64,000 nucleotides of DNA, from contig NZ_AP022573.1 in NCBI RefSeq assembly GCF_010729105.1, forward strand, positions 4,278,001-4,342,000, given 5' to 3'. Shown piece by piece: positions 43,728 to 63,900 of the stretch (position 1 is its first letter; each line of letters opens with the position of its first letter). The position numbers and the translations under genes are program-made. A model generated the notes under the pieces. It worked only from the letters and a program-made list of their open reading frames with translations, had not been told where the DNA came from and did no database searches. Source of the DNA: Mycobacterium saskatchewanense (GTDB lineage: Bacteria; Actinomycetota; Actinomycetes; Mycobacteriales; Mycobacteriaceae).

Positions 43728-43822
43728 GGCGGTCAGGCTACTCGCACGGGTTATCCACAGTTGGGAGTTCGTCCACAGGCGGGCGACGGGCCGGCCTCGG
43801 GTGTCGCCGCTGACGACTATTT

Positions 43823-43838
43823 TCGAACACATGTGCGA
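43823..43838. promoter_or_regulatory. LexA/SOS box overlapping the 13E12 start codon
   Basis: TCGAACACATGTGCGA differs at one position from the mycobacterial SOS consensus TCGAAC-N4-GTTCGA. The ATG of the 13E12 gene lies inside it, so the right half-site also codes the first residues (Met-Cys-Asp instead of the usual Met-Phe-Asp). Confidence 0.7.
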
Positions 43839-45045
43839 CACCTTGAGTGTTTCGGAGTTGCGGTCGGCGACCGATGGGCAGCTGGCGGCGATGATCGGGG
43901 CGGGTGCGCGGGACGAGGCGAGGGCCGCGGCGCGGCGGTTGGCGGCGATCGCGGAGTTCGTGGTGCGGCACGCCGATGGGCCGACCGAATCCGCGCATTG
44001 GTCGTGTGACAACTGGGACGCGATGGCCGCCGAGGTGGCCGCGGCCGGGCACGTCAGCCATGCGATGGCCTCGGGGCAGATGTATCTGGCGGTGGCGTTG
44101 CGCAGCCGGCTGTCGCGCGTGGGAGCGTTGTTGGCCCGCGGGGTGATCGGTGTGCGGCTGGCCTCGGCGATCGTGTGGCACACCGACTTGATCAAAGACC
44201 CCGACACCCTGCGTCTGGTCGATGAGGCGCTGGGCGAGGATGCCGCGCAGTTCGGTCCGCTTTCGGTGGCCAAGGCCGGCCAGCGCATCGACGCCATCGT
44301 GTCCCGCCATGACCCCGCCGCGGTGCGCCGCTACCGCGCCGGGGCCCGCGGCCGCCACGTCTCGATCACCCCTGCCGACGACGCGTCGGGCACCGCGGGC
44401 CTGTGGGGGTCGCTGTATGCCACCGACGCCGCCGTGCTCGACCGCCGGTTGACCCAGCTGGCCCGGCAGGTCTGCGACCACGATCCGCGCACCGTCGAGC
44501 AGCGCCGCGCCGACGCCCTGGGCGCCCTGGCCGCCGGCGCCCAGACCCTGGCGTGCGGCTGCGCCAACCCCGACTGCCCCGCCCGCTCCGAGGTCGACCC
44601 GCGCGCCGCGGCGGTGACCATCCATGTGGTGGCCGATGCCGCCGCCCTGACCGCCCCGCCCGACCCGCACACCTCCGGCCAACCCGAGCGCCGACCGCTC
44701 ACCCCCGAGATGACGCTGGCCGAGGCGCTGGCCCCCGACCCCGAACCCGGCCCCCCAACACCACTGCCGCCCGCGGCCCACCTCACCGGCGGGGCCACCC
44801 TGCCCGCCGCGCTGATCGCCGAGCTGGCCCGCGCCGGCGCGCGCGTCAGCCCCCTACTGATGGCCGCCGGGGCGCCCGCCGAGCCGGGCTACCGGCCCTC
44901 GGCCGCGCTGGCCCGGTTCGTCCGCTGCCGCGACCTGACCTGCCGCTTCCCCGGCTGCGACCGCCCCGCCGACCTCACCGACATCGACCACACCATCGCC
45001 TACCCAGCCGGGCCCACCCACCCGTCCAAGGTTAGATGCTGCTAA
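43831..45045 (+). CDS. 13E12-family protein (DUF222 + HNH), truncated by element insertion
   Basis: The 404-residue open frame begins MCDTLSVSELRSATDG and covers the DUF222 domain plus the start of an HNH nuclease domain (CRFPGCDRPADLTDIDHTIAYP). The family then normally continues through a Cys/His-rich KxLCRxHH segment, which is absent. After HPSK the reading runs three codons into foreign DNA and stops, 9 bp before a serine integrase start. The break therefore marks an integration site inside a 13E12 repeat, the same target family used by prophage phiRv1 of M. tuberculosis. The protein has lost the HNH catalytic end and is probably inactive as a nuclease. Confidence 0.88.
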   Translation: MCDTLSVSELRSATDGQLAAMIGAGARDEARAAARRLAAIAEFVVRHADGPTESAHWSCDNWDAMAAEVAAAGHVSHAMASGQMYLAVALRSRLSRVGALLARGVIGVRLASAIVWHTDLIKDPDTLRLVDEALGEDAAQFGPLSVAKAGQRIDAIVSRHDPAAVRRYRAGARGRHVSITPADDASGTAGLWGSLYATDAAVLDRRLTQLARQVCDHDPRTVEQRRADALGALAAGAQTLACGCANPDCPARSEVDPRAAAVTIHVVADAAALTAPPDPHTSGQPERRPLTPEMTLAEALAPDPEPGPPTPLPPAAHLTGGATLPAALIAELARAGARVSPLLMAAGAPAEPGYRPSAALARFVRCRDLTCRFPGCDRPADLTDIDHTIAYPAGPTHPSKVRCC

Positions 45046-45054
45046 TATACCCCC

Positions 45055-46494
45055 ATGGCGAAGATGAAATCCGCTGGTCAGCGGGCTGGGGTGCGGTCGG
45101 CGGCGATTTACGCGCGTATCTCGGCTGATGTGGAGGGCACCGGGTTGGGGGTGGCGCGGCAGTTGGAGGATTGCCGCAAGCTGTCTGCTGACCGCGGTTG
45201 GCCGGTTGGCGATGAGTATGTCGATAACGATGTGTCGGCGTTCTCGGGCAAGCCGCGTCGGCAGTATGCGCGGATGCTGGCCGATCTGGCATCAGGGGCG
45301 CGGGATGCGGTGATCGTCTACAACTTGGACCGGTTGCATCGCCGACCGGTGGAGTTGGAAGAGTTTGTCGCTTTGTGTGAGTCGGTGGGTGTGCGAGACG
45401 TGGCTACCGTGACCGCCGATATTGACCTGGGTAACGATGACGGGTTGTTCATGGCCCGGATTTTCGCCGCGTTCGCCGCCAAGGAGTCCGGGCGCAAGTC
45501 CGCACGTATTCGCCGCAAGATGTTGCAGAACGCCGAACAGGGACTACCGCACGGCTCGGTGCGCCCGTTCGGCTACGAGGACGACAAGATCACGCTGCGG
45601 ACGTCGGAGGCGGCGGTGGTGCGTGAGATGGTGGACCGCTACTTGGCGGGCCAGTCGTTGTTGTCGTTGACGGTGTGGCTCAACGACTCCGGCGTTTCCC
45701 CGGCGGTGGCCAAGTCGTGGCAGACCTCGGCGGTGCGCCAGATCCTGTGCTCGGGCCGTATCGCCGGGCTGCGGGAGCATCGTGGTGAGGTGATCGGGCC
45801 TGCGAAATGGCCGGCGATCATTACGCCGGCGGAGCGGGACCGGATCTTGGCGCGTATCGCGGCGCGGTCGGTGACCAAGACGCGGGCGGCGCGCACATAT
45901 GTGTTGTCAGGGATGCTGCGGTGTGGGCGTTGCGGTAATCGGCTGTATTCGCAAGCCCGGCACAGTAATCCCGATCATCGGGTGCGCCGCTATGTTTGTC
46001 TGAAAGGACCCGATCATGGCGGCTGTGGTCGGCTGACGGTGGTCGCCGAACCGGTTGAGGCTTTGTTGACTGATGCGGTGTTGACCCGCCTGGATTCTCG
46101 GGATCTGGCGAAGGTGTTGGCCGGCAAAGCCAGCCCTAATCATGATGTGGCTGCGTTGGCGGCGGCCGTGGAGGCCGATCAAACGCGCCTCGATGAGCTG
46201 GCCGGTTTGTATGCCGACGGCGCGATCAGCGCGCGGGAGTGGATCGCGGCCCGCGACCCGATCACCAGCCGCATCCAGCAGGCCAGGCGTGACATCGCTG
46301 AGGCCACCGATACCAGTGAGGTTTATGAGTTGGCGGGCACCGGCGGGGCGTTGCGCGGCCAATGGCCGGACCTCGACGTGGAACGCCAGCGGAGCATCGT
46401 CAAATCGATCCTGGATCACGCGGTGATCGCACCGGGCACCCCCGGTTCCCGCAGTCTCGACATTAACCGCGTGCAACCCCATTGGCGCATCTAG
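45055..46494 (+). CDS. Large serine recombinase (phiRv1-type integrase)
   Basis: The 479-residue protein has an N-terminal serine-recombinase domain with nucleophile Ser23 in AAIYARISAD, followed by VIVYNLDRLHRRPVELEEF and RKSARIRRKM. A recombinase domain and a zinc-ribbon (CGRCGNRLYS...CLKG) with coiled coil come next, and the end is VQPHWRI. The overall pattern and the end resemble the phiRv1 integrase Rv1586c (469 residues, ending in a similar motif), which integrates in REP13E12 copies. Its location right at the broken 13E12 gene supports the same specificity. It would need a separate directionality factor for excision. Confidence 0.93.
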   Translation: MAKMKSAGQRAGVRSAAIYARISADVEGTGLGVARQLEDCRKLSADRGWPVGDEYVDNDVSAFSGKPRRQYARMLADLASGARDAVIVYNLDRLHRRPVELEEFVALCESVGVRDVATVTADIDLGNDDGLFMARIFAAFAAKESGRKSARIRRKMLQNAEQGLPHGSVRPFGYEDDKITLRTSEAAVVREMVDRYLAGQSLLSLTVWLNDSGVSPAVAKSWQTSAVRQILCSGRIAGLREHRGEVIGPAKWPAIITPAERDRILARIAARSVTKTRAARTYVLSGMLRCGRCGNRLYSQARHSNPDHRVRRYVCLKGPDHGGCGRLTVVAEPVEALLTDAVLTRLDSRDLAKVLAGKASPNHDVAALAAAVEADQTRLDELAGLYADGAISAREWIAARDPITSRIQQARRDIAEATDTSEVYELAGTGGALRGQWPDLDVERQRSIVKSILDHAVIAPGTPGSRSLDINRVQPHWRI

Positions 46495-46535
46495 GTTTTC
46501 GGCGTCGCGGATGCTCCCTGGCGAGTGCCGAGTGT

Positions 46536-46620
46536 GTGTCTGGGCTGGTGGGCCGTCAAGGCCAAAGCCGCACGCGGTCGAAGCCAGCTTCGAGCCTGGA
46601 CGGCCCACCAGCCCAGACAC
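46536..46620. terminator. Perfect 22-bp stem hairpin between integrase and rep operon
   Basis: The arms 46536-46557 and 46599-46620 are exact reverse complements (22 bp) with a 41-nt loop that itself contains a TCGAAGC/GCTTCGA inverted repeat. It lies 41 bp after the integrase stop and downstream of the convergent minus-strand operon, so a bidirectional terminator is the simplest reading. A single-strand origin, double-strand origin or recombination structure is also possible. There is no T tract. Confidence 0.65.
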
Positions 46621-46711
46621 CAGGAATGCTCTTATCGCCGGGAAGGGTTGTGTTGAAATAACTTTCGTCGTCTATCCGGTTGGCCGGTGACGGTACGGTG
46701 CCTTTGCGTGC

Positions 46712-46885
46712 TCAGCGCAGGAGGGTTGCGATGGCAGCCAGGGTGGTGGGGTCGGTGACGGTGACGGATAGGGCTTGGCGTTCACATGAGGCGGTCAGCC
46801 AGGCTATGAACTCCGGGCGCTCGTGCAGCGGGACCGCGCCGGCATCGTGGTTGTTGGCGGCGCCGCCCGCGGGCGTCGTGGCCAT
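46712..46885 (-). CDS. Small protein coupled to rep (57 aa), unknown
   Basis: A 57-residue frame starts at the ATG that overlaps the rep stop codon (TGATG) and runs MATTPAGGAANNHDAG to the end ATLLR. It has no recognised domain, but HERPEFIAWLTASCERQ and a helical TLAAIATLLR end look like real protein. The tight coupling to rep favours a true gene. Size and place would suit a small accessory or excision factor, but I see no helix-turn-helix that I could defend. Confidence 0.5.
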   Translation of the reverse strand: MATTPAGGAANNHDAGAVPLHERPEFIAWLTASCERQALSVTVTDPTTLAAIATLLR

Positions 46886-48515
46886 CACCCTGCCCCGCGT
46901 GGTGGCGGCGAGATGCGGGTGGAGACAGTCCGGGATTCGGTGATACCGGTGATGCGGGCGCTGATGTGGCGCAGGGCTGCGGAGATGACCAGGACGCGGT
47001 CACCGGCGCTGGCGTGTCCGGCGCGGTCGAACTCCCACAGCATCTCATCGGTGTCGATCGGTTGCTGCTGCCTGCCGGTGCTCGCCGTCACGTCGTCAGC
47101 GAAATGGGCGGATTGCGTATCGTCCTGTCGCCCTGAATGTTTGGCTATCTGGTTACGGGTCCAGGTGGCGCGGGCGGCGCGCAGGGCACCCATGGTGGTC
47201 GAATAGCGCCGCGATTTGGTAGTGATGTGGCCGCGGTAGCCCAGGGTGTGCAGCCAGCGCCCAATCCCCGCCAACGACGGACCCGCGGACGCTGGGTGTT
47301 CGGCGAGTCCGGCGATGGTGGACAGGATGGCCCGCACATGTTCAGTAACGTCGAGTTCGCCGATCGCTTCTGCGGACAGCCGGCGCGCGGTGATGCCGAA
47401 GTCGTGCAGGGATTTGGTGACGTATTTCGCCAGATATGCCGCAACCCTGCGCGGCGACAACCGCGAGGCCGAAGCGACTGCGGTGTCGTCGACTTCGGAA
47501 TCGCTTGCGGTTATTGGTTCGGGTGTCAATGGTTGGGTATCAATTTGGGTGCCGAACCGCACCGTGCGCACCCGCCCGGGTTGGCGTAATCGTCGTCGCC
47601 GGCGGGCACGTCGATACTGACGCGACTGGCAGCGTGTTGGATCAAGGCGGCCAGCTCGGCGGCGGTGATCGCTGACGACCAGCCGGGATGCTGCTCGGCT
47701 ACCGGACGAGACAACCTGCCACCCGCGGGCGGCGGGCCGTGACGATCGTGGTCACCTGATTTCGTGGTGTCGTTGGTGGCGGGTGGCGGGTCGAGGCGGA
47801 TCAGGGCATGGATGTGGGGTATGGCGCGGGCTTGCAATTCAACGACTTTGACGAAGCTGACCCGCACCGAGCCGGGCTTGACGCCAACTGTTTTCAGGTG
47901 CGTCGCCACGGCGCGCCGTAGTGCGATGGTGAACCGCCGCCACAGCTCGGGCAGATGCCAGGTGAACAAGATATGTCCCAGATAGTCGTAGCAGTCCGCG
48001 CACAATGGTTGGCCCACCAGAGGGTCATCGACACTGTGGATTATGGTGCAGCGCAGGCAGTTTCCGTGCCGGCAGCGGCCCGCCGACCTGTTGGGTATGG
48101 CGTGACACGGAGTTCCGGTGGCGTTGTGCACGGCCCCGTAGCTGGGGGCGGTCAAGGTGGTGAACACTTGCGGACGGTTGGCGACCTCGACGGGTATGTC
48201 GTGGTGGCCGCCGGCGGCTCCGGCGTGCACGAGTTGCCAGGTGTCGCGGGCGTAGAGGTCTGAGCATGACGGGCACACCGCGTGACGGCGGTTGTTGCAG
48301 CGCGTCCACACCGTGTGCTGACGCCCGGCGGTGTCGACACCGAGCAGCTGGATCGGGTGGGCGCAGTAACCGACCGATTCCACTCGCCGCCACCACGACC
48401 CGAAACCGGGTGAGGAGGCGCGCCGGCACATCTGGGTGACCACCGCATCGGCATCGATGGTGGCCGGCAGGCCCGGCAGCACGATCACCGGGCTCTGCGT
48501 CGTTACGGTCTTCAC
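46885..48515 (-). pseudogene. RepSA-like replication initiator, split by a frameshift
   Basis: The N-terminal part (from ATG 48515) has a Cys-rich zinc region (RCNNRRHAVCPSCSDLYARD, CRHGNCLRC) and the VVELQARAIPHIHALIRLD motif with the HxH typical of rolling-circle-type RepSA initiators. It stops at 47526. The family continuation (VRFGTQIDTQPL, VAAYLAKYVTKSL) is intact in a different frame that ends at 46885. The frames cross at the ggcggg run near 47570-47580, where one extra base would rejoin them into a ~540-residue protein. This is either a disabling mutation or a sequencing error. It overlaps tra by 4 bp. Confidence 0.8.
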
Positions 48516-49912
48516 CGATTTCCCTGTTCGCCTGAACGCGGTGCCCGAAAGGTGCGGGCCAACAAGGTGATATCGCGATCGGTGACGTGAAAGGCCCGGA
48601 CCCGTATCGGGTCGGCGGTGCCATCGATCATCACGTACCCGATGCCGGGGGTGGTATCAGCGATCAGGTCGCATTCGGCGCCGGCATCGCGGGCTCCTTG
48701 GCCCAAGACCATGGCGGTTTGGGTAGCCTCGGTCATCCGCAGCCCGATCCGCACGGTGAACAACTGCCGTACCGGCAGGGTGTCTTTGGCCGGGTCTTGC
48801 ACCGCGGCTACCACCGATATCCCGACCGCACGCCCTTGGGATAACAGCAGGCCGAGGAGTTGTTCTGTCTCGGCGCGGAGTTTGCGGTCGGTGACATAGG
48901 CGGTCAGCGCGGCGATCTCATCAATGATCAGCACGATCAACGGCTCAGCGAGGGCGGGGGTGTGCAGGCGGGTGTGCCCGCGCAGCCGGGTGGCGCGGGT
49001 CTGCATCAGCTTCACCAGCTCGCGCAGCAGTTCCACGGTGGGCTGACCGGTGTGGTAGCAGAACCGGGCGAACAGCGGCGCGCCAGCACCGAGTTCCATG
49101 CCGCCTTTGGGGTCGATCACCCACAACCGCACCCGCCCCGTTTTAACGTGGGGTGCCAGCCCGGCGATCAGCGACCACAACACCGAGCCTTTGCCGGCTC
49201 CGGTGGCACCGGCGGCCAGGATGTGCTGGCCCAACACCGGTAGGTGCCACCAGCGCCGCGATTCGGTGACCCCGACCCGCACCGCGCCCAGATCGACCGC
49301 CGAACCCGGGGTTGGCATGGGCACCGCGATCGGCTGGCCGAGCACATCCCCGCGGCCGATGATGATCCGCAGCTGGCCCGGCGTGGTGGCGCGGATCGTC
49401 AACCGCTGCGCGTCCCAGGTCGCCGCCAGTGCGAGGGCGCGTTTCTGCCAGTCGGCAATCGACTGGCCGGTCACCACCTTGACGATCAGCACGTCGGCGT
49501 GATGGCCGATCCGCACCGATTGCAGGGCAGGCACCAACGTGCGTTCACCCAGTTTGGCGGTCAGGCCGTGCAGGGCGCAGACCGATTCCCAGTTGCGGTG
49601 ATAACGCCACCACGCCCAGAAACGCTGCCGCAGCGGAGCGCTGACCCACCGGGTGAATGAGGCCGGCTGGCACACCCACCAGCCGAGGTATGCCACGGCC
49701 TCCACAACGGCGGTCAAAACGCCGGCTCGGGCGCCGTGACTGAAACCGACCCAGATGGCGACGACGGTGGGAATGCTCAGGGAGGGAAACAGGATTGCCC
49801 ACCACAGCAGATACCCGGCGGCTTTGAGTAGTCCGACGATCAGCTCGCCGATCCAGTCATCATCGGGTGATGGATTGTTGTTGTGGTTCTTACGGTTTGG
49901 ACTATTCGACAT
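48512..49912 (-). CDS. FtsK/SpoIIIE-type DNA translocase (TraSA/TraB-like)
   Basis: The 466-residue protein has two or more N-terminal membrane helices (residues ~22-80). An FtsK-type motor follows with Walker A GATGAGKGS at 235-243 and Walker B LIVLIIDEIAAL near residue 330, then AVQDPAKDTLPVR. In AICEs a single such hexameric pump moves double-stranded DNA between mycelia or cells. The ATG follows a weak GAAGG and its stop overlaps rep (ATGA). It is the only main operon gene that is intact, and the strongest sign of a conjugative origin. Confidence 0.85.
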   Translation of the reverse strand: MSNSPNRKNHNNNPSPDDDWIGELIVGLLKAAGYLLWWAILFPSLSIPTVVAIWVGFSHGARAGVLTAVVEAVAYLGWWVCQPASFTRWVSAPLRQRFWAWWRYHRNWESVCALHGLTAKLGERTLVPALQSVRIGHHADVLIVKVVTGQSIADWQKRALALAATWDAQRLTIRATTPGQLRIIIGRGDVLGQPIAVPMPTPGSAVDLGAVRVGVTESRRWWHLPVLGQHILAAGATGAGKGSVLWSLIAGLAPHVKTGRVRLWVIDPKGGMELGAGAPLFARFCYHTGQPTVELLRELVKLMQTRATRLRGHTRLHTPALAEPLIVLIIDEIAALTAYVTDRKLRAETEQLLGLLLSQGRAVGISVVAAVQDPAKDTLPVRQLFTVRIGLRMTEATQTAMVLGQGARDAGAECDLIADTTPGIGYVMIDGTADPIRVRAFHVTDRDITLLARTFRAPRSGEQGNR

Positions 49913-49958
49913 GACGGTCTGCCTTCACTTACGACGGGGAAAGAAGGGGCGGGAGCGT

Positions 49959-50005
49959 CGGCCCGGCAGCCCATAGGCGCACGCTGTCGCGGGGCTGCCG
50001 GGCCG
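49959..50005. terminator. 14-bp perfect stem hairpin between pra-like and tra genes
   Basis: The arms 49959-49972 and 49992-50005 are exact complements around a 19-nt loop. It lies directly after the Pra-like stop and ~47 bp before the tra start on the minus strand. It could act as an attenuator or intergenic terminator that lowers transcription into tra and rep. Confidence 0.55.
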
Positions 50006-50013
50006 GCCTGCGG

Positions 50014-50349
50014 TTACCGGGCCTGCTGGCCCGTCTTGACGGTGGCGAGGTCGGTGGCGGTGATGGCTTCGGCGCGGTACGCGATGCCCGAGCGGCCGTC
50101 TTGCGACCACGGCAACGCCACCAGACCCGTCACAGACACCGGCTGGCCGACAACGACTTTCGGTTCCCCGACCACGGTGACCGCCAGCACTTCACCGCCG
50201 GTGGCGTCCAGGGCGATCAGCTGCACCTGCCACAACGCCTGCCCGGTGGCCTTGTCCACGCGCGGTGCACCGGTGTCGAAATTCGTGCGCTGCTCGGGAA
50301 TCCGAGTACAGAGGAACGTCACCCCGGTGGTGTCGATACGTAACTTCAT
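50014..50349 (-). CDS. Pra-like / SCO3933-family element regulatory protein
   Basis: The 111-residue protein (MKLRIDTTGVTFLCTR start) reads as a small OB-like beta protein: DKATGQALWQVQLIALD, VLAVTVVGEPKVVVGQ and VTGLVALPWSQDGRSGIAYR are typical of the SCO3933 family found in actinomycete integrative elements. There the Pra protein activates replication, integration and excision genes. AAGGAAGGA lies 8-10 nt before the ATG. It is the first gene of the minus-strand rep/tra operon and diverges from the XRE/TPR regulator. Activator function is inferred from the pSAM2 model only. Confidence 0.7.
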   Translation of the reverse strand: MKLRIDTTGVTFLCTRIPEQRTNFDTGAPRVDKATGQALWQVQLIALDATGGEVLAVTVVGEPKVVVGQPVSVTGLVALPWSQDGRSGIAYRAEAITATDLATVKTGQQAR

Positions 50350-50501
50350 GGATTGCTGTCCTTCCTTGCGGTGTTGGCGCGGTCTGTTCGGCCGCGACTC
50401 AAGGACAGCGCCATCCCGGATGCGCCCGGAAGTGACAGGCAGTGATACTGGTGATGACCGCACACGCGCACACGTAGCTGACCTGCGCTGATGTATGCGG
50501 C

Positions 50502-51713
50502 ATGATCGAAGCCATGGCCGCAGTCGACCCGATCCGGGCACTCAATGCGCAGCGGCTCAGCCAAGCCCGCAAACGCTACGGCTACAGCTTGCGTGAGTTG
50601 GCGATCGAGGTCGAAAACGTGCGCAAGCTACGCGGCGACCCGACCTGCCCGCGCGGGAATCCCTGCGGCAAAAAATCGCCCAGATCGAGCGGACCGGAAT
50701 GCTCGGCCCGCTGTGGCGTGAAGACCTGGCCGCGGTGTTCGGCGTCGAACCCGACGAAATGTTCAGCGTGCCGATCGCCACCGAGCTGCCGCACCCGCTG
50801 CTGATACAACTACCCGTCGACCGTGACGTACTCGCCGTCATCGAGGCCCAGCAACATGCCCACATCCAAGCTGAGCACACCTTCGGCCCCCAACACGCCC
50901 GCCCCCTGGTGGAATCCGATCTGGTCACCATCGAATCCCTGATTGCCCACGCACCCTCGCAGGTCAAGGCAGAGATGCGGCGCGCCGCTGGGGCTATCGC
51001 CGAAGTTGCCGGGTGGATCGCCCAAGACCTCGGAGATCACGCCGCCGCGGAGAAGCTCACCCACACCGCAGCCCTGCACCTACGTACGGCCGGCCCGCCA
51101 TTCAACGCCATAATCTTGATGCGCCAATCCAACATTCTCACCCGCACCAACCCCGACCTGGCCACCGCCTTGGCCACCGATGCCGCCGACCTCATCGACG
51201 GCCACGACGTGGGTCGCCTGGCCGCCAGCATCGCCCGCCAACAGGCCCTTGCCGAGCTGGCCAATCACAATGAGCGGGGATTTCATCGCTACGCCGCCGC
51301 AGCCCTCGAACTCGGTGACCTGCAACCCCACCCGCATGATCATGCGATCTATGCCCACGGCGCCTACGTCGCCAGCGAGATCGCCTCCGGCTACCTGCGC
51401 ATCGGTGACCCGGATAAAGCCCTAACCCTGCTCGCCGGGCACCATCACGCCTGGACATCACAGCAGCACCGCGATCAGACCGTGGCCGATATGCGACTCC
51501 TGCACGCCTACATCGCCACCGGCGAATACCAGCAAGCACTGGCACTGACCGCCGCAGCGATCCCGGGCTACCTGGCCGCGCCCTCAGCGAGCCAGGATTC
51601 ATCTGGCCAGGGCAGGCACAATCGTGCGAGACCGTCGACGGCGAAACAAAGACCCGATCCTGCAACAGCTCGCCGGCCGCATCAAAAACGCCACCCAAGG
51701 AGTCACCCCGTGA
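50502..51713 (+). pseudogene. XRE/TPR-type element regulator with two frameshifts
   Basis: The gene begins MIEAMAAVDPIRALNAQRLS with a helix-turn-helix (YGYSLRELAIEVENVRKL). Three frames must be joined to give one family-like protein. The first change is near 50650 (from PTCPRG to ARESLRQKIAQIERTGMLG). The second is near 51580 (from IPGYLAA to RARIHLARAGTIVRDRRRR). The middle part is a long helical TPR-like region with paired Ala/Leu helices. The true end, AGRIKNATQGVTP, overlaps the creatininase GTG (GTGA), which shows the intended reading. Such regulators keep AICE transfer genes silent; here it is probably broken. Confidence 0.75.
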
Positions 51714-52432
51714 GCCGTCGAATCATCCCCGACACCACCACCACCACCGACCCCGCGGCCACCCACACGGTCGCGGTGCTGCCGGTCGGCTCATTCGAAC
51801 AACACGGCCCCTACCTTCCGCTGGGCACCGACACCCTCATCGCCACTGCCATCGCATCCGCAATCAATCAGCACCACAACGTATTTCAGCTACCACCGGT
51901 CGCGTTCAGCTGCTCCCACGAACACGCCGCCTACCCCGGCACCATCAGCATCAGCGCCACCACCTTGGCCGCGATCGTCGCTGACATCATCGAATCGCTG
52001 GCACAGCAGAACATCGCCGGGCTGATCGTCGTCAACGGCCACGGCGGCAACGCCGTACTCACCAACGTCGTCCAACAAGCCAACCACCCCAACAACCCCG
52101 TCAAGGTTGGGCTCTACCCCAGCCGCGAAGACTGGACCGAAGCCCGCACCGCCGCAGGAATCCACAGCAGCAACCACGACGACATGCACGCCGGCGAACT
52201 AGAGACCTCCATCCTGCTCGCCACCCATCCCGACTACCTGCGCGACGGCTGGCAGACCAGCGACCACACAGCCAACGACCGCCGCTACCTCACCAGCCTC
52301 GGCATCCACGCCTACACGCCCACCGGCGTCATCGGCTCACCATCCCAGGCCACCGCCGCCAAGGGCAGCAGTGCCCTCGACCACCTCGGCCGCAACGCCG
52401 ACACCCTGATCGAACTCCTCACCACACGTTGA
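51710..52432 (+). CDS. Creatininase-family metal-dependent amidohydrolase (MftE-like)
   Basis: The 240-residue protein has the creatininase-family metal sites: GSFEQHGPYLPLGTDT near residue 23, VNGHGGNAVL near residue 108 and DDMHAGELETSILLA near residue 155. Members hydrolyse creatinine or formamide pyrimidines, or trim the mycofactocin precursor (MftE). GTG 51710 overlaps the end of the regulator gene, so the two are coupled. Regulator plus creatininase-like pairs recur in actinobacterial mobile elements, where the role is unknown. A longer in-frame fusion with the regulator is an artefact of that gene's frameshift. Confidence 0.85.
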   Translation: MSRRIIPDTTTTTDPAATHTVAVLPVGSFEQHGPYLPLGTDTLIATAIASAINQHHNVFQLPPVAFSCSHEHAAYPGTISISATTLAAIVADIIESLAQQNIAGLIVVNGHGGNAVLTNVVQQANHPNNPVKVGLYPSREDWTEARTAAGIHSSNHDDMHAGELETSILLATHPDYLRDGWQTSDHTANDRRYLTSLGIHAYTPTGVIGSPSQATAAKGSSALDHLGRNADTLIELLTTR

Positions 52433-52746
52433 GCACAAGCGACAGCTCGGCGGCTACCTTCCGGGCTTCGCTGCGCTCCCTTCGCTTCCGTCCGCTGGCG
52501 CTCCCGTCCGCGCCGGTCGCTCCACTGCGCCCTGCGTCCGCCGCCGAGCACCAGACCAGCGCCCACCACTCAGTGAGAACACCGGCCGTGTTCGCGCCTG
52601 CCACCGCCAGGCCAACGGCGTTTGCGCCTCTCGCGCGGCGACCAGAGCCGGGCCAGACCGCCGGCCACCGTGGGACACATGCCCTGACCTCGCACGTGAG
52701 GACTTTCTTTACTGCTATTTAACGGTGGATCCGACCTTGGCATTTG
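52433..52746. other. Non-coding, short-repeat-rich region after creatininase gene
   Basis: About 310 bp with no convincing gene. It has degenerate repeats of a (g)cttcgctgcgctccc type around 52475-52530 and strong strand asymmetry (C/T-rich on the plus strand). In AICEs cis-acting transfer loci with short repeats occur near such places, but no known recognition repeat is matched. The right part (after ~52710) probably belongs to the IS256-family element. Confidence 0.4.
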
Positions 52747-52965
52747 TTAGTTGCCGGTCGGGGTGATCCGGCCGTTGAAGGTGATTGCGAACGCGTTGAG
52801 TGCGGGCTTCCACCTCATTGCCCATCGTGCCCTACCTCGCCCGGTCGGATCTAGTGATCGGGTAACGAGATACAGGCATTTCAGGGCAGCTTGGTCGGTA
52901 GGGAAATGCCCGCGGGCGCGAATCGCGCGCCGGTAGCGGGCGTTGATCGACTCCACGGCGTTGGT

Positions 52966-54457
52966 ACCCGGTATGAAATGGGGTGGAGGCCCACGTGGTT
53001 CTGTCTTGCCTGGTCAGACGTACTAGGCATACGGTGCGACCGTCCGGAACAGGGGCCTTCGGGGAACACGTATGGGCAGGCCGTTCTTGCTCGATGGGCT
53101 GCGAGCCCGTGTTAGTAGTTGGCCGCCCCTGCGACTTGTCCGGCTGCGCTGCGAGCGCGTATCCGTAGGTGTCGTTCCGTCCCAGCGGTTCCCCGGCCAA
53201 GTGATCAGCACGGAAGGGAGAACCAGGCGGTGGTCAGATATGTCGGCATGGATGTGCACCGCGAGTTCGCGCAGCTGGCGGTGGTCGAGGACGGGATCCT
53301 CCGCGACGAAGGCAAGATCGGAGTGACGCCAGAAGCATTGCGGGCGTGGGCGTCTGAACTACGCCCGGATGATGAGGTGGCGTTGGAGGCCACCGGAAAC
53401 AGCGATGCGATCGCTACTCTGCTCACACCGCTGGTGGCCCGTGTGGTGGTGTCGAACCCGTCGAAGACGCGGGCGATCGCCGAGGCGAAGGTGAAAACCG
53501 ACAAGGTCGATGCGCGGATCTTGGCGCAGTTGCTGGCAGCGGATTTTCTGCCACCGGTGTGGCTGCCCGACGATCGGACCCGCAGTCTGCGCCGGCAGGT
53601 GATGCGTCGTGCTCACGTGGTGCGTCAACGGACTCGGCTGAAGAATCAGGTGCACGCGATCCTGGCCCGTAACCTCGCACCGACGCCGCCGGTGTCGGAT
53701 TTGTTTGGCAAGACCGGTCGGCACTGGCTCTCGCGTCAGCCGTTACCTGCCGATGAACGCGCCAGCGTGCAGGCGTTGTTGCGTCAGTTGGACTTTCACG
53801 CCCATGAACTCGCTTTGGTCGATAGAGAGCTGGCCCAGAAGCGCTCACCGATCCGATGGTGGCCCGGTTGATGACCATCCCTGGTGTCGATGCGATCGCC
53901 GGCATCTCCATTGTGGCCGCGGTCGGCGACTTCTCTCGGTTCGACGATCCCGACAAGTTAGTGGCCTATATCGGGCTCAACCCGAAGGTGCGCCAGTCCG
54001 GGAATTCCGCGCCGGTGCACGGTCGGATCAGCAAAGCCGGCCGCGCCCATGTGCGTGGTGTGCTGGTGGAGGCGGCCTGGTCGGCCAGTCGCGCACCAGG
54101 GCCCTTGCGTGCGTTCTATCAGCGCATCAAATCCCGACGCGGATTTCAGACCGCGATCGTGGCCACCGCCCGCAAGATGACGGTGCTCGCATGGCATTTG
54201 GTGACCAAGGACCAGGACTACGCCTTCGCTCGACCAGGGCTGGTCACCCACAAGCGCCGAAAGCTCGAACTGGCCGCCGGGGCGCCGTCACGCCGCGGCA
54301 ACTACCGCCAGCCCGGCGCGACCTATAACAGCAAGCACCGCCGCGACGAAGAGAACGCGGTCGTCGAACAGGCCGAACGTGCCTACGAAGTCCTCGTCGC
54401 CCACTGGCAACCCCGCAAACCCGCCACCAATCACCGCTCACCTTGACGATTTCATCC
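52966..54457 (+). mobile_element. IS110-family element inserted in the IS256-family transposase
   Basis: Boundaries follow from rebuilding the interrupted reading frame: the host frame ends with GGT at 52963-52965 and resumes at GGAGCAG at 54460. The bases GT occur on both sides, so the element is 1,492-1,494 bp with at most a 2-bp duplication. No terminal inverted repeats are seen, as expected for IS110 elements. Confidence 0.85.
53230..54446 (+). pseudogene. IS110-family transposase with a 1-nt frameshift
   Basis: The first frame (GTG 53230 to 53871) starts VVRYVGMDVHREFAQLAVVEDG and has the DEDD-type Asp, VALEATGNS and KTDKVDARILAQLL of IS110 transposases. The second (from ~53856) carries the Tnp_20 part with MTIPGVDAIAGISIVAAVGD and KVRQSGNSAPVHGRISKAG. 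They join at cagaagcgctc near 53845, where an inserted G (aaggcgctc) would give one ~406-residue protein. GAAGGGAG precedes the start. The copy is inactive as read. Confidence 0.88.
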
Positions 54458-55570
54458 GTGGAGCAGATGACCCGACGTATCTCGACGTCGTAGTCCAGGA
54501 AGGGCACGAACTCGCTCCAGGCGTTCTCCCAGAGCCGGATGATCGCCGGGTACTGGGGACCCCATTTCGCGGTGAATTCGACGAAGCGTTCCTTGGCCGC
54601 GGCCTCGGTCGCCGCGGTATAGACCGGCCGAATGTCGCGGGCGATCTGATCCCAGTACTTGCGGGACGCGTAGCGAAAGGTGTTGCGCAACAGATGAATG
54701 ACGCACGTTTGGATGATCGCTCGGTCCCAGACGGTGTTGACTGCCTCGGGCAATCCTTTCAATCCGTCACAGACCACGATGCACACATCGCCGGTGCCGC
54801 GGTTCTTGATCTCGGTGAGCACCGACAGCCAGAACTTGGCGCCTTCGCTGCCCTCGCCGGCCCACAGCCCGAGGATGTCGCGCTCGCCTGCGCAGGTGAC
54901 CCCCACGGCCACGTAGATGGGCCGGTTGGTGACCTGCCCGTCGCGGATCTTGACGAAGATGGCGTCGATGAAGACCACTGGATATACCGCTTCCAGCGGC
55001 CGGTTGCACCATTCGGCCATCTCGCCGACCACCTTGTCGGTGATCCGGCTGATGGTGTCTTTGCTGACGGTGGCGCCGTAGACGTCGGCGAAGTGTGCCG
55101 CGACCTCGCCGGTCGTCAATCCTTTTGCCGTCAACGACAATACGATCTCATCAATACCGGTCAGGCGACGCTGTCGTTTCTTGACGATCTGCGGGTCGAA
55201 GCTGCTGTTGGTGTCACGGGGCACCTCGATCTCGACGGGCCCGATCTCGGTGAGCACCGTCTTGGCCCGGGTGCCGTTTCGGGAATTGCCGCTGCCACGG
55301 CCCGCTGGGTCATGCTTGTCATAACCCAGGTGCTCGGCCATCTCCGCGTCCAGCGCGGTCTCAAGCACGTTCTTGGTCAACTGATTGAGCAGCCCGTTGG
55401 GGCCGACCAATTCGACTCCTTGTTCCTTCGCCTGCGCCAGCAGCTGCTCAGCCAGCTGCCGTTGATCCAGTTCCATCGCCACAGGATCGAGTGTTTCTGA
55501 CATCGTCAGTCCTTCCCGCCAAGCACCGCTCTGAGCCGTCCCGGTGAGTCCGGAGACTGCATTCGTTGAA

Positions 55571-56580
<1,010 letters not shown>

Positions 56581-57012
56581 GCTTTCAAGATCTCGTTGGC
56601 CCGGCGCAGCTCGGCAATCTCCTTGCGCAGCGCCTTGTTCTCCTCGGCCATCGCGGAGGTCACACCCGGCCGCTGGCCGGTATCGACCTCCGAGCGGCGG
56701 ATCCAGGTCCGCAACGTCTCCGGTGTGCCGATCCCCAACATGCCCGTGACCGCCGTGATCGCCGCCCACTGCGACGGGTACTGCGGGCGCACCTCAGCGA
56801 CCATGCGCACCGCACGTTCACGAAGCTCGTCGGGGTACTTGCTGACACGTCCCATAACCCAGATCCTCCCAAGATCGGGAGTCTCCGGAAACGCCGGGAC
56901 GGCTCACTGGGGGCTGACCCGTCGATGACCTACATCTGCGCCTATTTCACCCAGGTCTTGAATTCACGGGTCATTTGGTGCAGTGAGAGATCGAGGTCGT
57001 CAACTCGTAGGC

Positions 57013-57828
57013 CTACTGGTCTGGGCCTTCTGGTGAAGGTCGGCGAGCAGTGCGGTGTCCGCTGGATCGTGCCCCGCCGACTTTACCCTCCACAATGAGG
57101 TAACCGTTCTCGTCGACCCTGATCCAGTCCACTGCGGCGATACGCGTGTCGTCGGGGGAGAAGGGGCCGGGGGGTTGGTCATCGGGTTGGGGGATGGCGT
57201 CTTGGCGTCGAGAAAGTTCCAGTTCGGCGTTGCGGTAGTCGTCGTAGGTGTCGCGCAAGATTCTGTCGACCCACAGGCCGATGACGACGAGTTCGGTACG
57301 CTGTCGTACGAGATCCTCGTCGTCGACGCCGACAGTTGACTGCAAGGTTTGACGCACCCGCTCGGCCTCCCAGGAGCCGGGCCGCCCGGCCAGGATTTGT
57401 TCGGTGCCTTCGATGTTGACGGCGGCCGCGGCCAGGGCGTGGGTGACGAACTCGGCCCAGTCGATCGGTAGCGCTGCGCGGGAGTCGCGATCCGGTTCCC
57501 ATTTCCCCGAACTATGTTGACGCATCGGCTGATTCGTCAGATGAGCGGCCTCCGTCAGGGCGGCGATCACGTCGTAGAGGACTTCGTCGTACGGTCGGGG
57601 AACCATCGTCTCGGCCGCAGTCAGATATCCGGTGTCGAACAGCGCCGCCGAGAGGACCTGACGATAGGGCCGGCCGATCTCGGCGGCCATAGCCCGCAAG
57701 TTGTCTCGTGTTGGCAGAGAGGTCAATTCGCTGATCGTCACTGCATCAAGGATTGCCGCGTGACGCCAATACGGTTCGCCCAAGCCGGTGTCGGACGCGT
57801 TGTGACCGCGCTTGTACTCGTCGATCAC
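57013..57828 (-). CDS. Hypothetical protein, possible C-terminal frameshift
   Basis: The 271-residue product starts from GTG 57828 (VIDEYKRGHNASDTG) and is rich in helices: LRAMAAEIGRPYRQVLSAAL, EVLYDVIAALTEAAH and WAEFVTHALAAAAVNIEG. I recognise no domain. The end reads GRIIEGK-like IVEGKVGGARSSGH in this frame. A neighbouring frame from the same place gives VKSAGHDPADTALLADLHQ and stops at 57000, which looks more protein-like, so one base may be missing near 57085. It lies just right of the IS3 copy and may be accessory cargo. Function unknown. Confidence 0.55.
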   Translation of the reverse strand: MIDEYKRGHNASDTGLGEPYWRHAAILDAVTISELTSLPTRDNLRAMAAEIGRPYRQVLSAALFDTGYLTAAETMVPRPYDEVLYDVIAALTEAAHLTNQPMRQHSSGKWEPDRDSRAALPIDWAEFVTHALAAAAVNIEGTEQILAGRPGSWEAERVRQTLQSTVGVDDEDLVRQRTELVVIGLWVDRILRDTYDDYRNAELELSRRQDAIPQPDDQPPGPFSPDDTRIAAVDWIRVDENGYLIVEGKVGGARSSGHRTARRPSPEGPDQ

Positions 57829-58211
57829 CGAGCCCGGTGCCTGGTGTCAGGCAGCGCCAGCCGGTAACTCAGCATGTCTGCCGCCGATACCAACGACGAA
57901 TCACTCAAAGGTATTAACCGACTACACCCCATGAATGACCGGGGCTAACCACGGAGGCCTCTATCCGGTCCATATTCCTTACGGTTTTTGCAGGGTGTTC
58001 GTGGCTGTCGGCCGTAGGCTTCGAGTACCCAGGGACGTCGGGTATGGCTTTCCATATTCTGCCTTTGGTGATGGCTCGAATCGATTGGCCGCCCGGGCGT
58101 CCCGCGACGACTCGACCGCTAATTGAGAGGTGCGATCTAATCGCTGTGTAAGGACACGTCGGCGTGGTCGTCTGGTGGGTTCAAAGACCGACAACGAACA
58201 CGGAGGTGGTT
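57829..58211. other. Intergenic region, no gene recognised
   Basis: About 380 bp between the hypothetical gene and the second IS110-family copy contain no supported gene. A small plus-strand frame at 57935-58126 has no recognised domain and no good start. The right end probably belongs to the IS110 element's upstream part, with GGAGGTGG before its GTG. Confidence 0.5.
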
Positions 58212-59406
58212 GTGCCACAGCAACTATGGGCGGGTGTGGATGCCGGCAAGTCAGAGCACCATTGCGTCGTCGTCGACGTTGATGGCAGGAGGGTGCTCTC
58301 GCGGCGGGTAGCCAACGATGGCGACACTAAACGAGTTGATCAACGCGGTCACCACGCTCGCTGATGGGGGCGACCTCACCTAGGCGATCGACCTGGCCGG
58401 TGGTGGTGCTGCGTTGCTGATCACGCTGCTGCTGGACGCCTCCCAGCGGCTGCTCTACATCCCGGGCCGCAGTGTCTATTACGCATCGGGCGCCTATCGC
58501 GGCGACGCGAAAAGCGACGCCAAAGACGCGGCGATCATCGCCGATCAAGCCCGGATGCGCCGTGATCTACAGCCGCTGCGTTCCGGTGATCAGATCACCG
58601 TGCAGCTGCGCATCCTGACCGCTCGGCGCGCTGATCTGGTCGCCGATCGCACCCGAGCGCTAAACCGGCTGCGCGCTCAGCTGCTGGAGTACTTTCCCGC
58701 CCTCGAGCGGGCGTTTGACTACGGTCAACACAAGGCTGCGCTGATCTTGCTCACCGGTTACCAAACCCCCGAGGCACTGCGTCGCGCGGGCGCCGCGCGG
58801 CTGGTGGCCTGGCTGCGCAAACGCAAGGCCCGCACCGCCGAGGCGGTCGCCGCCGCCGCACTCGAAGCTGCCCACGCTCAGCACACTGTGCTGCCCGGAC
58901 AAGACCTGGCCGCCGCCATGGTGGCCCGGCTAGCCCAGGAGGTGATCACCCTCAACACCGAAATCGCCGACACCGAGACGATGCTCGAGGAACGATTTCG
59001 CCGCCACCGCCACGCCGAAATCATCCTGAGCATGCCCGGCTTCGGGGTCATCCTCGGCGCCGAATTCCTCGCCGCAACAAGGGGAGACATGAGCGCTTTC
59101 GACTCCGCCGATCGTCTGGCCGGCATCTGCGGGCTGGCGCCGGTACCGCGCGACTCCGGGCGCATCAGCGGCAACCTCAAACGCCCCCGCCGCTACCACC
59201 GACGACTCCTGCGCACCTGCTACCTGGCCGCCCAAAGCGCCGCCCGCACCGACCCGGCGTCTCGCGCCTACTACGAACGCAAACGCGCTGAGGGCAAACA
59301 CCACCGACAAGCCGTCCTAGCCCTGGCCCGCCGACGCCTCAACGTCCTGTGGGCCATGCTGCGCGACCACACCACCTACCAAATCCCAACCGCCGCAGCG
59401 GCTTGA
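58212..59406 (+). pseudogene. IS110-family transposase (IS900/IS1110-type), frameshift and stop
   Basis: The N-terminus VPQQLWAGVDAGKSEHHCVV is typical of MAC IS110 members. After RRVAND the frame shifts (gatggcgac, near 58320), and the restored frame has a TAG where Trp is expected (LTWAIDL) at about 58379-58381. From there the frame is open to 59406: YIPGRSVYYASGAYRGDAKS, SMPGFGVILGAEFLAATRGD and GICGLAPVPRDSGRISGN are the RuvC-like and Tnp_20 motifs. Two independent lesions make a sequencing error less likely, so this is probably a dead copy. Confidence 0.87.
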
Positions 59407-59470
59407 CAAACCCATTGAGAATCGAATGGGTCACACGAGGCTGCAGCTGACCACGTTTTAGCCGCTAGAC

Positions 59471-59490
59471 GGTACGGTACTGGACTGTAC
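59471..59490. promoter_or_regulatory. Candidate operator with three GTAC half-sites
   Basis: GGTACGGTAC-TGGACT-GTAC contains three GTAC units just upstream of the TetR gene start at 59509. GTAC-N6-GTAC is an inverted repeat and could be an autoregulatory operator. Confidence 0.4.
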
Positions 59491-59508
59491 TACGGCGACG
59501 GTTCTATC

Positions 59509-60102
59509 GTGGGCGCTGTGTCTCGGATTGCCGATCACCCCGCGGAGTCCGCGCCGTGGTCGCCGCGGGAGGCCGAGTTGCTTGCGGTGACATTATGGCT
59601 GCTGCAGCAACACGGGTATGACCGGTTGACGGTGGACGCGGTGGCGGCCACCGCCCGCGCCAGCAAGGCGACGGTGTACCGGCGATGGCCATCGAAAGCC
59701 GAACTGGTATTGGCCGCGTTCATCGAGGGGACCCGCCAGGTCGTGGTCCCGCCCGATACCGGCACACTGCGGGGAGATTTGCTGGAACTTGGGGAGTTGG
59801 TGAGCCAACAGGCCCGCCAGCACGCCAGCACCATCCGCGCGGTGCTTGTCGAGGTGTCGCGTAACGCCGCGCTCAACGAGGCGATACGGCATCAGTTCCT
59901 CGAGCAGTGGAAAGCCTTGATCCAGCACATCCTGAAGCAGGCCGTTGACCGAGGTGATATCGCGGGCGCCGCCATCGACGACGAACTTTGGGACCTACTT
60001 CCCGGCTACCTAATGTTCCGGTCCATCATCTCTAGCCGACCCCCCACCCGTCGCACCGTGCAAGCCCTGGTCCTTGACTTCATCATCCCCAGCCTCACCT
60101 GA
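59509..60102 (+). CDS. TetR/AcrR-family regulator
   Basis: The 197-residue protein has the TetR helix-turn-helix at residues ~25-65 (YDRLTVDAVAATARASKATVYRRW) and a helical ligand/dimer domain ending LDFIIPSLT. The ARASKATVYRRWPSKAEL recognition region is typical. GTG 59509 is used; a second GTG (VSRIADHP) three codons later is possible, and neither has a Shine-Dalgarno, so the mRNA may be leaderless. Flanked by IS debris on both sides, its target genes are not evident. Confidence 0.85.
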   Translation: MGAVSRIADHPAESAPWSPREAELLAVTLWLLQQHGYDRLTVDAVAATARASKATVYRRWPSKAELVLAAFIEGTRQVVVPPDTGTLRGDLLELGELVSQQARQHASTIRAVLVEVSRNAALNEAIRHQFLEQWKALIQHILKQAVDRGDIAGAAIDDELWDLLPGYLMFRSIISSRPPTRRTVQALVLDFIIPSLT

Positions 60103-60489
60103 TCCACCGGGTAGGGCGGTTTAGCCCCTGTTGTCTTCGGCGACGCCTCGCAGGCGTGAAAATGTGGTCGGGTTGCCCACCGACGCCGACTTTCACTCTG
60201 GTTTGTGGGCCCGTGGTTTAGCCTGGCGCCGGGCCCGACCTGGGAGGGTCACGCACTGTTGCTTCGAGCAGCCGGTCAGAATTTCGGTTCCTCGACCGAG
60301 GCCCCAGCAACCTCCCCATGAAATATCGATGTGATGGGAGGACAAGCGAAGTGAAATGGTCAACGTCCGCGACGTGAACAACGACACGGTGGACGCGGTG
60401 TGGCTGGTCACGTTCACAGAAGGGCGTGCTGCGGCCATCGTTCGTGCCGGCACCGGCGCGGCGGCTGCACGATGACACCCGGCTACGGG
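60103..60489. other. Intergenic region with one possible small ORF
   Basis: About 390 bp between the TetR gene and IS debris. One small frame at 60356-60475 (39 residues, MVNVRDVNNDTVDAVWL start) has a GGGAGGA some 14 nt upstream but no known domain. Nothing else is supported. Confidence 0.4.
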
Positions 60490-61205
60490 TCGACTGACCG
60501 GCGAACGCGCCCGCTACTGGGAGCGGCTCGAGAAGCTGCTCGAGGACGCGTTGATTTAAAGTGTCGGCGGTGGCGCGTAGAAGCTAGACACCGTCTCGGT
60601 TCGCGACATGCTTGAGGTGTTGATCGCTGGCGAGCGCGACGCCGGACAACTCGCTGATCTGGCCCGCCGCCGGGTGCGGGTCGAACACGGCGCCTTGGTC
60701 GAGGCTTGACGGGCCGATTTCGATGACCACCACGCGGAGCGGAGCCGGATGCTTGCTCACCCGATTGACACCCTCAGCGCGTGGATCGAACCCTAACCAC
60801 TCGTATCGACGACCAACTGAGCGTCCTGATCGACGTGGCAGCCACAGCGGCGACACCAACGCGAGCGCGGCCGGCGGCGGGCCAGGCCAGATCATCGTCG
60901 ACGACACCATGGCTGCCCGACAGACGCTTGCGGCGATCGAGTGTCTCGACGAGATCGCCGGCGTCGGGCGGCTCGGCGTACAGCTGATCCTGGCCGCATC
61001 GGCGCCGATATGGCCCCAATTCCCGACCGCCGCGCGCCTGGTGCAAACGGCAGTCGCTACCGGATTGGTTCGCGGTCAGCCCGCGGTTCAGTACGCGTTT
61101 CCGCACAGCGGCGGGACGCAGGTGCGTGGCGGCCACCCGTCCAGGTCTCCTCCGGGGCTATCTGTCGTTGCCGATCTCGTGGTCGGCGAATTGGCCATAC
61201 TCGGG
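60490..61205 (+). pseudogene. Degraded IS110-family transposase remnant
   Basis: Pieces of an IS110 transposase occur in order but in several frames and with stops: GERARYWERLEKLLEDALI, then VSVRDMLEVLIAGERD and LADLARRRVRVEHGALVEA, then LAAIECLDEIAGVGRLGVQL and LILAASAPIWPQFPTAARLV. The last piece matches the Tnp_20 domain, where relatives read DEIPGIG and ILAEVG. N-terminal DEDD sequences are missing. This copy belongs to a different IS110 subgroup from the two fuller copies upstream. Confidence 0.7.
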
Positions 61206-61255
61206 TAGCCGGAGCGGCTGCTGCGGGAAGCTGGTTTGCGGAGGGTGAGGGGGGC

Positions 61256-61897: not shown

Positions 61898-61981
61898 GTA
61901 GTCACCGTAAGCCCCGCCCGTACCTGGCCCGCACCGAATCGTGCCTGCATCGGGCGATTGACCCGTCCGCAACGCAATTAA

Positions 61982-62035
61982 CACTACTGGTAGTGGTGTA
62001 GCGCTACTAGTAGTAGTGTAGCGCTACTAGTAGTC
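61982..62035. promoter_or_regulatory. Operator array: one palindrome plus two tandem 20-bp repeats
   Basis: CACTAC-TG-GTAGTG (61982-61995) is a perfect 6-bp palindrome. Two adjacent 20-bp copies (61996-62015, 62016-62035, 19/20 identical) each contain the perfect palindrome CTACTAGTAG. All three share the CTAC/GTAG arms, as expected for binding of TetR dimers, and lie 85-140 bp upstream of the TetR start. Confidence 0.7.
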
Positions 62036-63845: not shown

Positions 63846-63900
63846 AAATGGGCATTGCCGCATAGAGTGGGCGATGATCTTTTGTGGTGGGAGGGTTTTC

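Follow-up and report, generated by a model that had tools for sequence, protein, structure and literature searches.

The 64,000 nucleotides analysed here, hereafter called the window, come from Mycobacterium saskatchewanense (NCBI RefSeq assembly GCF_010729105.1, contig NZ_AP022573.1, positions 4,278,001 to 4,342,000 of the forward strand) and hold the left two-thirds of a 27.4-kb element of the actinomycete integrative and conjugative element (AICE) type, which runs from 45030 to window-equivalent 72430 within a split 13E12 gene. Two properties of this element concern us most: the codon at which it interrupts its target gene and a short sequence, site b, at which its conserved genes end and its cargo begins. 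The window copy is designated E1, and the two other islands of this kind in the same genome are E2 and E3, the latter being locus L013. The backbone and the ends of E1 are as follows (window coordinates, strand, feature).

43801..45029, plus: 13E12 (DUF222-HNH) gene, 5' half, ending in the Asn codon of the HNH motif (...GPTHPS-N); the 3' half continues from window-equivalent 72429
45022..45054, plus: attachment site attL, comprising target, AA core (45028-45029) and 25-bp left arm GGTTAGATGCTGCTAATATACCCCC (45030-45054)
45055..46494, plus: large serine integrase (Int), 479 aa, matching Resolvase, Recombinase and Zn_ribbon_recom
46888..47571, minus: RepSA C-terminal piece in its own frame, bearing the tyrosine motif YLAKYVTK
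47529..48515, minus: RepSA N-terminal piece in another frame, bearing the HUH motif HIHALI
48512..49912, minus: FtsK/SpoIIIE-type transfer protein, Tra (FtsK_SpoIIIE, PF01580)
50017..50541, minus: Pra-like regulator of the SCO3933 family (NCBIfam NF051478, 85.4 bits, cut-off 80)
50502..51710, plus: XRE/TPR regulator, NsdA-like but under that model's cut-off, in pieces 50502-50651, 50642-51586 and 51585-51710
51710..52432, plus: creatininase-family protein (PF02633), a frequent partner of XRE/TPR in related elements
52696..52718, plus: site b, GTGAGGACTTTCTTTACTGCTAT, predicted rolling-circle double-strand origin and right end of the conserved backbone
52719..64000 and on to window-equivalent 72403, no strand: cargo, with transposase, TetR and Mce/MlaD genes and further genes past the window
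window-equivalent 72404-72428: attR arm GGGGGTAGTTTCCCGACTTGCCACT, beside the 13E12 3' half

A preliminary description, made from the letters of the sequence, had recognized a 13E12 frame cut inside its HNH domain, a serine recombinase right after it, and RepSA-like, FtsK/Tra-like, Pra-like, XRE/TPR and creatininase genes; profile matches recovered all of them. The frame 43801-45042 matches DUF222 (PF02720, 179 bits) and stops within the HNH motif, the gene being cut at 45028. The RepSA pieces lie in two overlapping frames, match PF20199 at 268.9 and 139.1 bits and together bear both the HUH motif and the catalytic tyrosine of a HUH initiator, which E1 divides between them, while the XRE/TPR gene occupies three pieces over two frames. 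Because these two genes are split across frames, the window copy looks damaged. Tra, in addition to its PF01580 match, was matched by the plasmid_TraB model under that model's cut-off. ARAGORN found no tRNA in the window and none in the 37 related loci scanned, and thus no sign of insertion at a tRNA 3' end. A comparison with the PDB matched only distant integrases, and a PADLOC scan of the XRE/TPR and creatininase proteins of E2 and of the protein encoded at 57016-57828 returned nothing.

The right end of the element had at first been placed at 52740, which proved wrong: the 3' half of the interrupted 13E12 gene stands at genome position 4350429, 8.4 kb beyond the window end, the attR arm lies next to it, and 52718 is an internal boundary. 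The site-specific integrase is therefore accompanied by an att site at either end of the element. In E1 and E3 the arm next to Int, on the left, reads GGTTAGATGCTGCTAATATACCCCC, and the one next to the 13E12 3' half, on the right, reads GGGGGTAGTTTCCCGACTTGCCACT; E2 has GGGGATAGATTCACGATGTCTCACA as its right arm. Both arms flank AA, and the right one, taken as its reverse complement, ends in CTACCCCC, which resembles ATACCCCC of the left one; inverted arms around a core are what is expected of serine-integrase half-sites. Intact homologues of the E1 13E12 gene hold both halves contiguously, and in 9 of 11 homologous intact loci the end of the 5' half and the start of the 3' half share one codon, the alignment of the 5' half ending three residues earlier in the remaining two (L243 and L245). 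The conserved neighbours of this locus in relatives gave no match within the 1.5-kb flanks, and the empty-site comparison is one of homologous intact genes rather than of the orthologous site. Altogether, the profile matches, the recovered 3' half and the contiguous homologues bear out the integration of an AICE gene set in a 13E12 gene, and the arms suggest that it was likely inserted by serine-integrase recombination at the AA core within the Asn codon.

The preliminary description had reckoned with a single element, whereas the genome (6.01 Mb, one contig) holds three islands of 27.4, 42.6 and 57.8 kb, as measured between paired 5' and 3' 13E12 halves. Each of them lies in a different 13E12 gene, and all three cut that gene at one codon, the Asn of the HNH motif. 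When the genome was searched with the 13E12 5' half, two more long copies and a short remnant came up, both long 5' halves being cut at the same position by an integrase of the same family, and a search with the intact 3' half returned long 3' halves at 4350429, 4758012 and 4159472, plus short remnant pieces. At the level of the mycobacterial locus stretches, tblastn of 21 intact 13E12 3' halves found none at the expected right end; rearrangement, considered as the cause of these missing 3' halves, was dropped when the whole-genome search put them 27 to 58 kb away. What remains of a further 13E12 gene at G000:C1:3911619-3912035 (L006, L011, L134 and L135) is decayed and damaged in its HNH stretch, and the 6 kb examined there show no island.

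E1 and E3 are 99.2% identical over 7.9 kb, and E2 is 89% identical to both over ~6.0 kb of backbone and 76-77% over the part that contains the integrase. Tra of E3 (L013 12947-14835) is split over frames while its Rep is open, the reverse of the window copy. These splits, together with those of Rep and XRE/TPR in the window, would fit a reading in which none of the three islands is alive any more and the pattern is no more than a record of former activity; yet open copies of RepSA and XRE/TPR exist in E2 and E3, all seven backbone frames are open in E2, and near-identical islands occur in other species, M. ahvazicum and M. europaeum, which implies recent movement. We regard general death of the islands as doubtful, though credible enough to be kept in mind. 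The window copy itself may move, if at all, with help from other copies. Excision and conjugative transfer of the element are predicted from its gene set only.

The same codon recurs well outside this genome. We compared 37 mycobacterial loci with an integrase ~80% or more identical to that of E2, or nearer to that of the window (L080, with a fragmented integrase, was left out), and classed their left junctions by eye, the frame being set by taking AA as the first two codon bases. The junction falls at the HNH Asn codon in 25 of the 37 (12 of the 13E12 type and 13 of the GLHAHHIRHWEDGG type); three more abut HNH remnants, seven lie elsewhere and two flanks are too short, so that HNH genes or remnants make up 28 of 35 informative cases. 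Among 21 other loci, with integrases 48-67% identical and from actinobacteria save for one record labelled Bacillus (a label that is unverified), an HNH gene is abutted in 16, as judged by eye 14 times at its 3' half with the integrase turned round and twice at its 5' half, and the Asn codon stands at the junction in 15 of these. Two distant integrases (33% and 36% identical) beside 13E12 genes, in G016 and G029, apparently cut ~7-8 codons further downstream (by eye), and since they cut further on, use of the Asn codon looks like a property of this integrase clade. Furthermore, a degenerate right-arm pattern, which included AACCT and allowed two mismatches, gave 29 matches in 13 of 24 genomes and none when reversed; all 24 carry this integrase, the genome of L091 standing outside the set. 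An in-frame HNH 3' half follows 13 of the 29 right arms (strict pattern), and shorter HNH-like starts or unrelated frames follow the other 16. In the M. europaeum genome, one right arm leads into an ABC-transporter frame, and the Int flank of L105, of the same species, looks by eye like the earlier part of a frame of this kind, so that we consider HNH genes to be preferred but not required. The many chromosomal targets foreseen in the preliminary description are thus supported and extended, by three islands in one genome and many HNH loci in relatives.

A serine recombinase beside a 13E12 half would also suit a prophage of the phiRv1 kind, phiRv1 being located in REP13E12 (PMC9317374). The AICE-type Rep, Tra and Pra genes do not fit such an origin, and a PHROGs scan of nine proteins returned only integrase/invertase, transposase (with one model of unknown function) and FtsK-like matches, with no structural genes among the nine. 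Nor was the label phiRv1-type, first given to the integrase, supported as a statement of kinship: its best-ranked phage match is 38% identical, all 1158 matched phage records fall below 60%, and phiRv1 is not among the 15 best phage matches listed. A prophage, already disfavoured on these grounds, appears so improbable that we give it very little weight.

The second property of the element concerns the far side of its backbone. The order Int in one direction, Rep, Tra and Pra in the other, and XRE/TPR and creatininase again in the direction of Int recurs in many mycobacterial loci, part of the set being missing or outside the stretch examined in some. When GTGAGAACTTTCTTTACTGGTAT was searched for with up to five changes allowed, site b turned up in 24 of the 37 mycobacterial loci (reversed control, 0), and in these 24 the conserved backbone ends there. 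The next bases are CAAG in 10, CGAG in 9, TAAA in 4 and TTAA in 1, the window, and the sequence past this tetranucleotide differs between loci, except that L092 equals L100 and E3 equals L093. Genus-wide, b is present in 125 of 396 genomes and the reversed pattern in 1; 139 of the 150 genus matches listed have at most two mismatches, and CAAG or CGAG follows in 126 of these 139, figures that refer to the matches listed and to a pattern whose last letter slightly disfavours flanks ending in A.

In 18 of 20 b sites sampled from those matches, with neighbours not looked at beforehand, Rep, Tra and Pra stand on the same side of b, the near edge of Rep being ~4.0 to 5.6 kb off. This integrase accompanies 6 of the 18 modules, within 10 kb in two and at 10-12 kb in four, and the other 12 gave no match to it in the 10 kb to the right and ~18-22 kb to the left of b, where other integrases were not looked for. 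Because 18 of 20 sites have the module and 12 of 18 modules no matching integrase, b goes with Rep-Tra-Pra rather than with this integrase. The same module figures bear on the possibility that b once served as attR, or serves the same integrase as a second site, with cargo captured by imprecise excision. Site b does loosely resemble a 25-bp half-site and its flanks start purine-rich; the true arms, however, have GGGGNTA and the AA core where b is flanked by CAAG or CGAG. Knowledge of the true arms, and the presence of b beside Rep-Tra-Pra modules without a matching integrase, led us to reject the reading of b as an old attR arm, and an attachment-site nature of b in general seems quite improbable to us.

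Two further copies of the module were noticed. In the 4.34-Mb genome G016, a Rep-Tra-Pra set with b (L233) has the same flank as L226 and L231 and no match to this integrase in the stretch examined. The M. avium plasmid pS2b (L247, NZ_CP076860.1, 190132-219481), 344 kb long and from a clinical isolate, carries the same backbone, with Tra 99.1% identical, a serine recombinase, Rep, the creatininase gene and its partner frame; an MmpL gene lies past site b, whose flank reads CAAG, and the simple att-arm pattern gave no match in this copy.

We propose that b is a replication origin, because its sequence and context match a nick site of the pC194 type. In print, the pC194 origin reads TATTAT(nick)CAAGATAAGAAAGA, the complementary strand being the one that is nicked (PMC5037232). 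According to the AICE survey PMC3218068, the pSAM2 origin is nicked by RepSA, and pSAM2 belongs to the pC194 family by its nick site, a placing for which the survey cites te Poele et al. Here, the minus strand at b reads CTTG or CTCG, the predicted nick, then ATAGCAGTAAAG; the pC194-type site TAT^CAAG (caret, nick or junction) is thus present in the family, while the flank of the window copy is TTAA. We infer that RepSA would nick the minus strand at CTTG^ATA, in the window between 52718 and 52719.

Pooling the 24 loci, the sample and the plasmid copy gave 44 junctions that represent 34 distinct flanks, and CAAG or CGAG starts 30 of the 34, compared with 0.97% of positions in 197 kb of cargo (binomial 1.8e-56, assuming independence). 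Some shared flanks and IS ends at b speak for another view, in which b is a mere hot spot for transposon insertion and the cargo junctions are deletions mediated by insertion sequences (IS). The same flank, TAAAGAACTACC or TAAAGACCTACC, stands at b in E3, L093 and L235, where an IS110-family element, which we take to be IS1111-like, seems to have gone in precisely at the predicted nick. An IS110-family gene adjoins b in E3, where a second junction, TGCTAT^CAAG, follows 1.36 kb on and matches the flank of L105. The junction of the window itself lies ~12 bp inside the end of a mutator-type IS, two E3 copies serving as reference. The 34 flanks mostly differ from one another, however, several fall within ordinary genes (alcohol dehydrogenase and an ArsR regulator, by eye), and we saw no single IS type that accounts for them, so that the hot-spot explanation strikes us as improbable.

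The origin reading of b makes the cargo beyond it of interest. In and past the window it comprises:

53119-54446: IS110-family gene that splits mutator-type (IS256-like) transposase remnants
55571-56272: rve (IS3-like) transposase
57209..57212, plus: CGAG, fused directly to site b in the M. ahvazicum copy
58414-59406: second IS110-family gene
59509-60102 and 61256-61984: two TetR genes
62469-63845: Mce/MlaD gene
past the window end: TetR, ISL3, MmyB-like and MmpL genes

The mutator-type element split by the IS110-family element spans 52719-55531, and the same 2.8-kb block occurs twice in the E3 island.

In near-identical pairs of islands, one copy has lost cargo beside b. In G022, the backbones of copies a and b agree at 99.7% over 7.7 kb and at 100% over the last 732 bp, and copy a is without 23.5 kb that in copy b lie between site b and a CGAG standing in place. 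The M. ahvazicum island has a backbone 99.9% identical to that of the window, and its site b is fused to the CGAG of window 57209, so that it has 4.5 kb fewer; M. europaeum also has this CGAG in place in its island (L182, 100% over 500 bases). Likewise, the sequence at the M. helveticum junction L089 is found 97.8% identical in L182 with its CGAG in place. In the near-identical pairs compared, b-proximal cargo is gone and attR-proximal cargo is kept.

Since the cargo starts exactly at the predicted origin, errors of replication are likely to trim it. Short termination sequences are found in plasmids of the pC194 type, and origin-linked deletions are known from rolling-circle plasmids. Our working hypothesis is that RepSA would nick b on the minus strand, where rolling-circle replication would start, and that the fork, on leaving b, would pass through the backbone and attP and come to the cargo last. 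If it halted before regaining b, at a site resembling CTTG or CTCG, the b-proximal cargo would be deleted, and because the cargo is replicated last, such an early stop would keep everything the element needs.

Several observations weigh against parts of this picture. As to the target, seven of the 35 informative left flanks are not HNH genes, and L128 abuts an HNH gene without the Asn codon. As to the gene set, homologues of KorSA (GntR) and Pif were not seen among the proteins scanned, the XRE/TPR and creatininase pair standing in that place. As to site b, it was not found in 13 of the 37 mycobacterial loci (several stretches end short, though not those of L107 and L109), in L106 it is on the opposite strand, and it was not seen in the non-mycobacterial loci scanned; 2 of the 20 sampled sites have no detectable Rep within 10 kb. 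The element L079 (G002:C1:3545500-3560000), with Int, site b and 19 kb of cargo, has no detectable Rep or Tra and is possibly mobilised in trans. As to the origin, motif 3 of RepSA is nearer to the phiX174 group than to pC194 in the account of PMC3218068. As to the junctions, 4 of the 34 flanks do not fit, TTAA of the window and TAAA in E2, in L091 and in the E3/L093/L235 group, the last of which looks like the IS110-family insertion at b. M. ahvazicum and the window also differ by a 1.4-kb IS-like segment, and the missing 4.5 kb include IS elements, so part of the difference may be a gain in the window. Finally, few junctions have an undeleted parent and the preference for CAAG or CGAG might partly be inheritance from an ancestral origin, and the model leaves the gain of cargo unexplained.

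Taking these points together, we consider it likely that the window holds the left two-thirds of an AICE-type element, one of three islands, which was inserted by its serine integrase at the AA core of an HNH Asn codon and whose cargo was trimmed by faulty termination of rolling-circle replication. With less assurance, although we lean towards it, we suggest that actinobacterial conjugative elements have a built-in cargo editor: the RepSA origin would be the fixed edge of the cargo, and the initiator would act as a one-ended recombinase that rejoins the origin to CTTG- or CTCG-like sites, with Int, Rep, Tra and attP always kept, while the integrase clade of the same elements would target the catalytic-Asn codon of HNH nuclease genes across Actinomycetota.

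With this analysis the ends of mycobacterial AICEs are exactly placed, their attP, with its AA core, can be deduced, and their choice of target follows a rule, the Asn codon of HNH, which occurs in many genes and is presumably kept constant by the needs of catalysis. A concrete candidate for the origin is at hand as well, and the constancy of the backbone beside a ragged cargo finds a simple explanation. If the proposal is true, natural deletion junctions can report the termination specificity of RepSA, and annotators of environmental and clinical mycobacteria can delimit such islands, whose load in the present case includes MmpL, Mce and regulator genes. Outside the element, window 10001-17000 has a GC content of 72-82% and a strong AT skew (up to 0.70), a pattern that we take to resemble large PE_PGRS-like repeats.

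Among known systems, pSAM2 and pMR2 share with this element a RepSA-type initiator and an FtsK-type Tra; pSAM2 has a tyrosine integrase and a tRNA target, and pMR2 has no creatininase gene annotated in its record. A Pra-type regulator is a further likeness to pSAM2 (PMC8584621), the same source giving SCO3933 as the Pra homologue and reporting that S. coelicolor has the remnant of an AICE with a serine integrase. The combination of an AICE with a serine integrase, which the preliminary description had thought undescribed, is not new, because such elements have been on record in mycobacteria since 2011: in the account of Ghinet et al. (PMC3218068), all Mycobacterium AICEs but one use serine recombinases, with one group in protein-coding genes (Mmar2129, Mav3790 and Srot1958) and eight others in tRNA-Leu, and in Frankia an AICE that carries such a recombinase interrupts a gene for a putative endonuclease. 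Mmar2129, Mav3790 and Srot1958, compared by description and not by integrase sequence, resemble the present element in gene set, serine recombinase and protein-coding target, and differ in that the HNH codon, the att arms and the origin-anchored cargo boundary do not figure in their description in the sections of PMC3218068 covered here. The codon-level target and the origin-bounded cargo are the parts that we did not find in the literature, where a search of titles and abstracts, with subscription journals mostly outside its coverage, gave nothing on 13E12 with conjugative integrases or on origin-anchored loss of AICE cargo. With phiRv1 the element has in common a serine recombinase and a target of the 13E12 family, but no close sequence kinship was found for the integrase (Rv1586c itself was not compared). 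One-ended transposition of the IS91 type, whose target rule is a tetranucleotide of partner DNA at the fixed end, offers a parallel in the fixed end beside a partner-DNA tetranucleotide, and differs in that no IS91-type transposase was seen among the genes scanned and the RepSA initiator would do the work. With plasmids of the pC194 type, the element shares the TAT^CAAG nick site (PMC5037232) and a HUH initiator; the difference is that here the predicted origin bounds the cargo of an integrating conjugative element.

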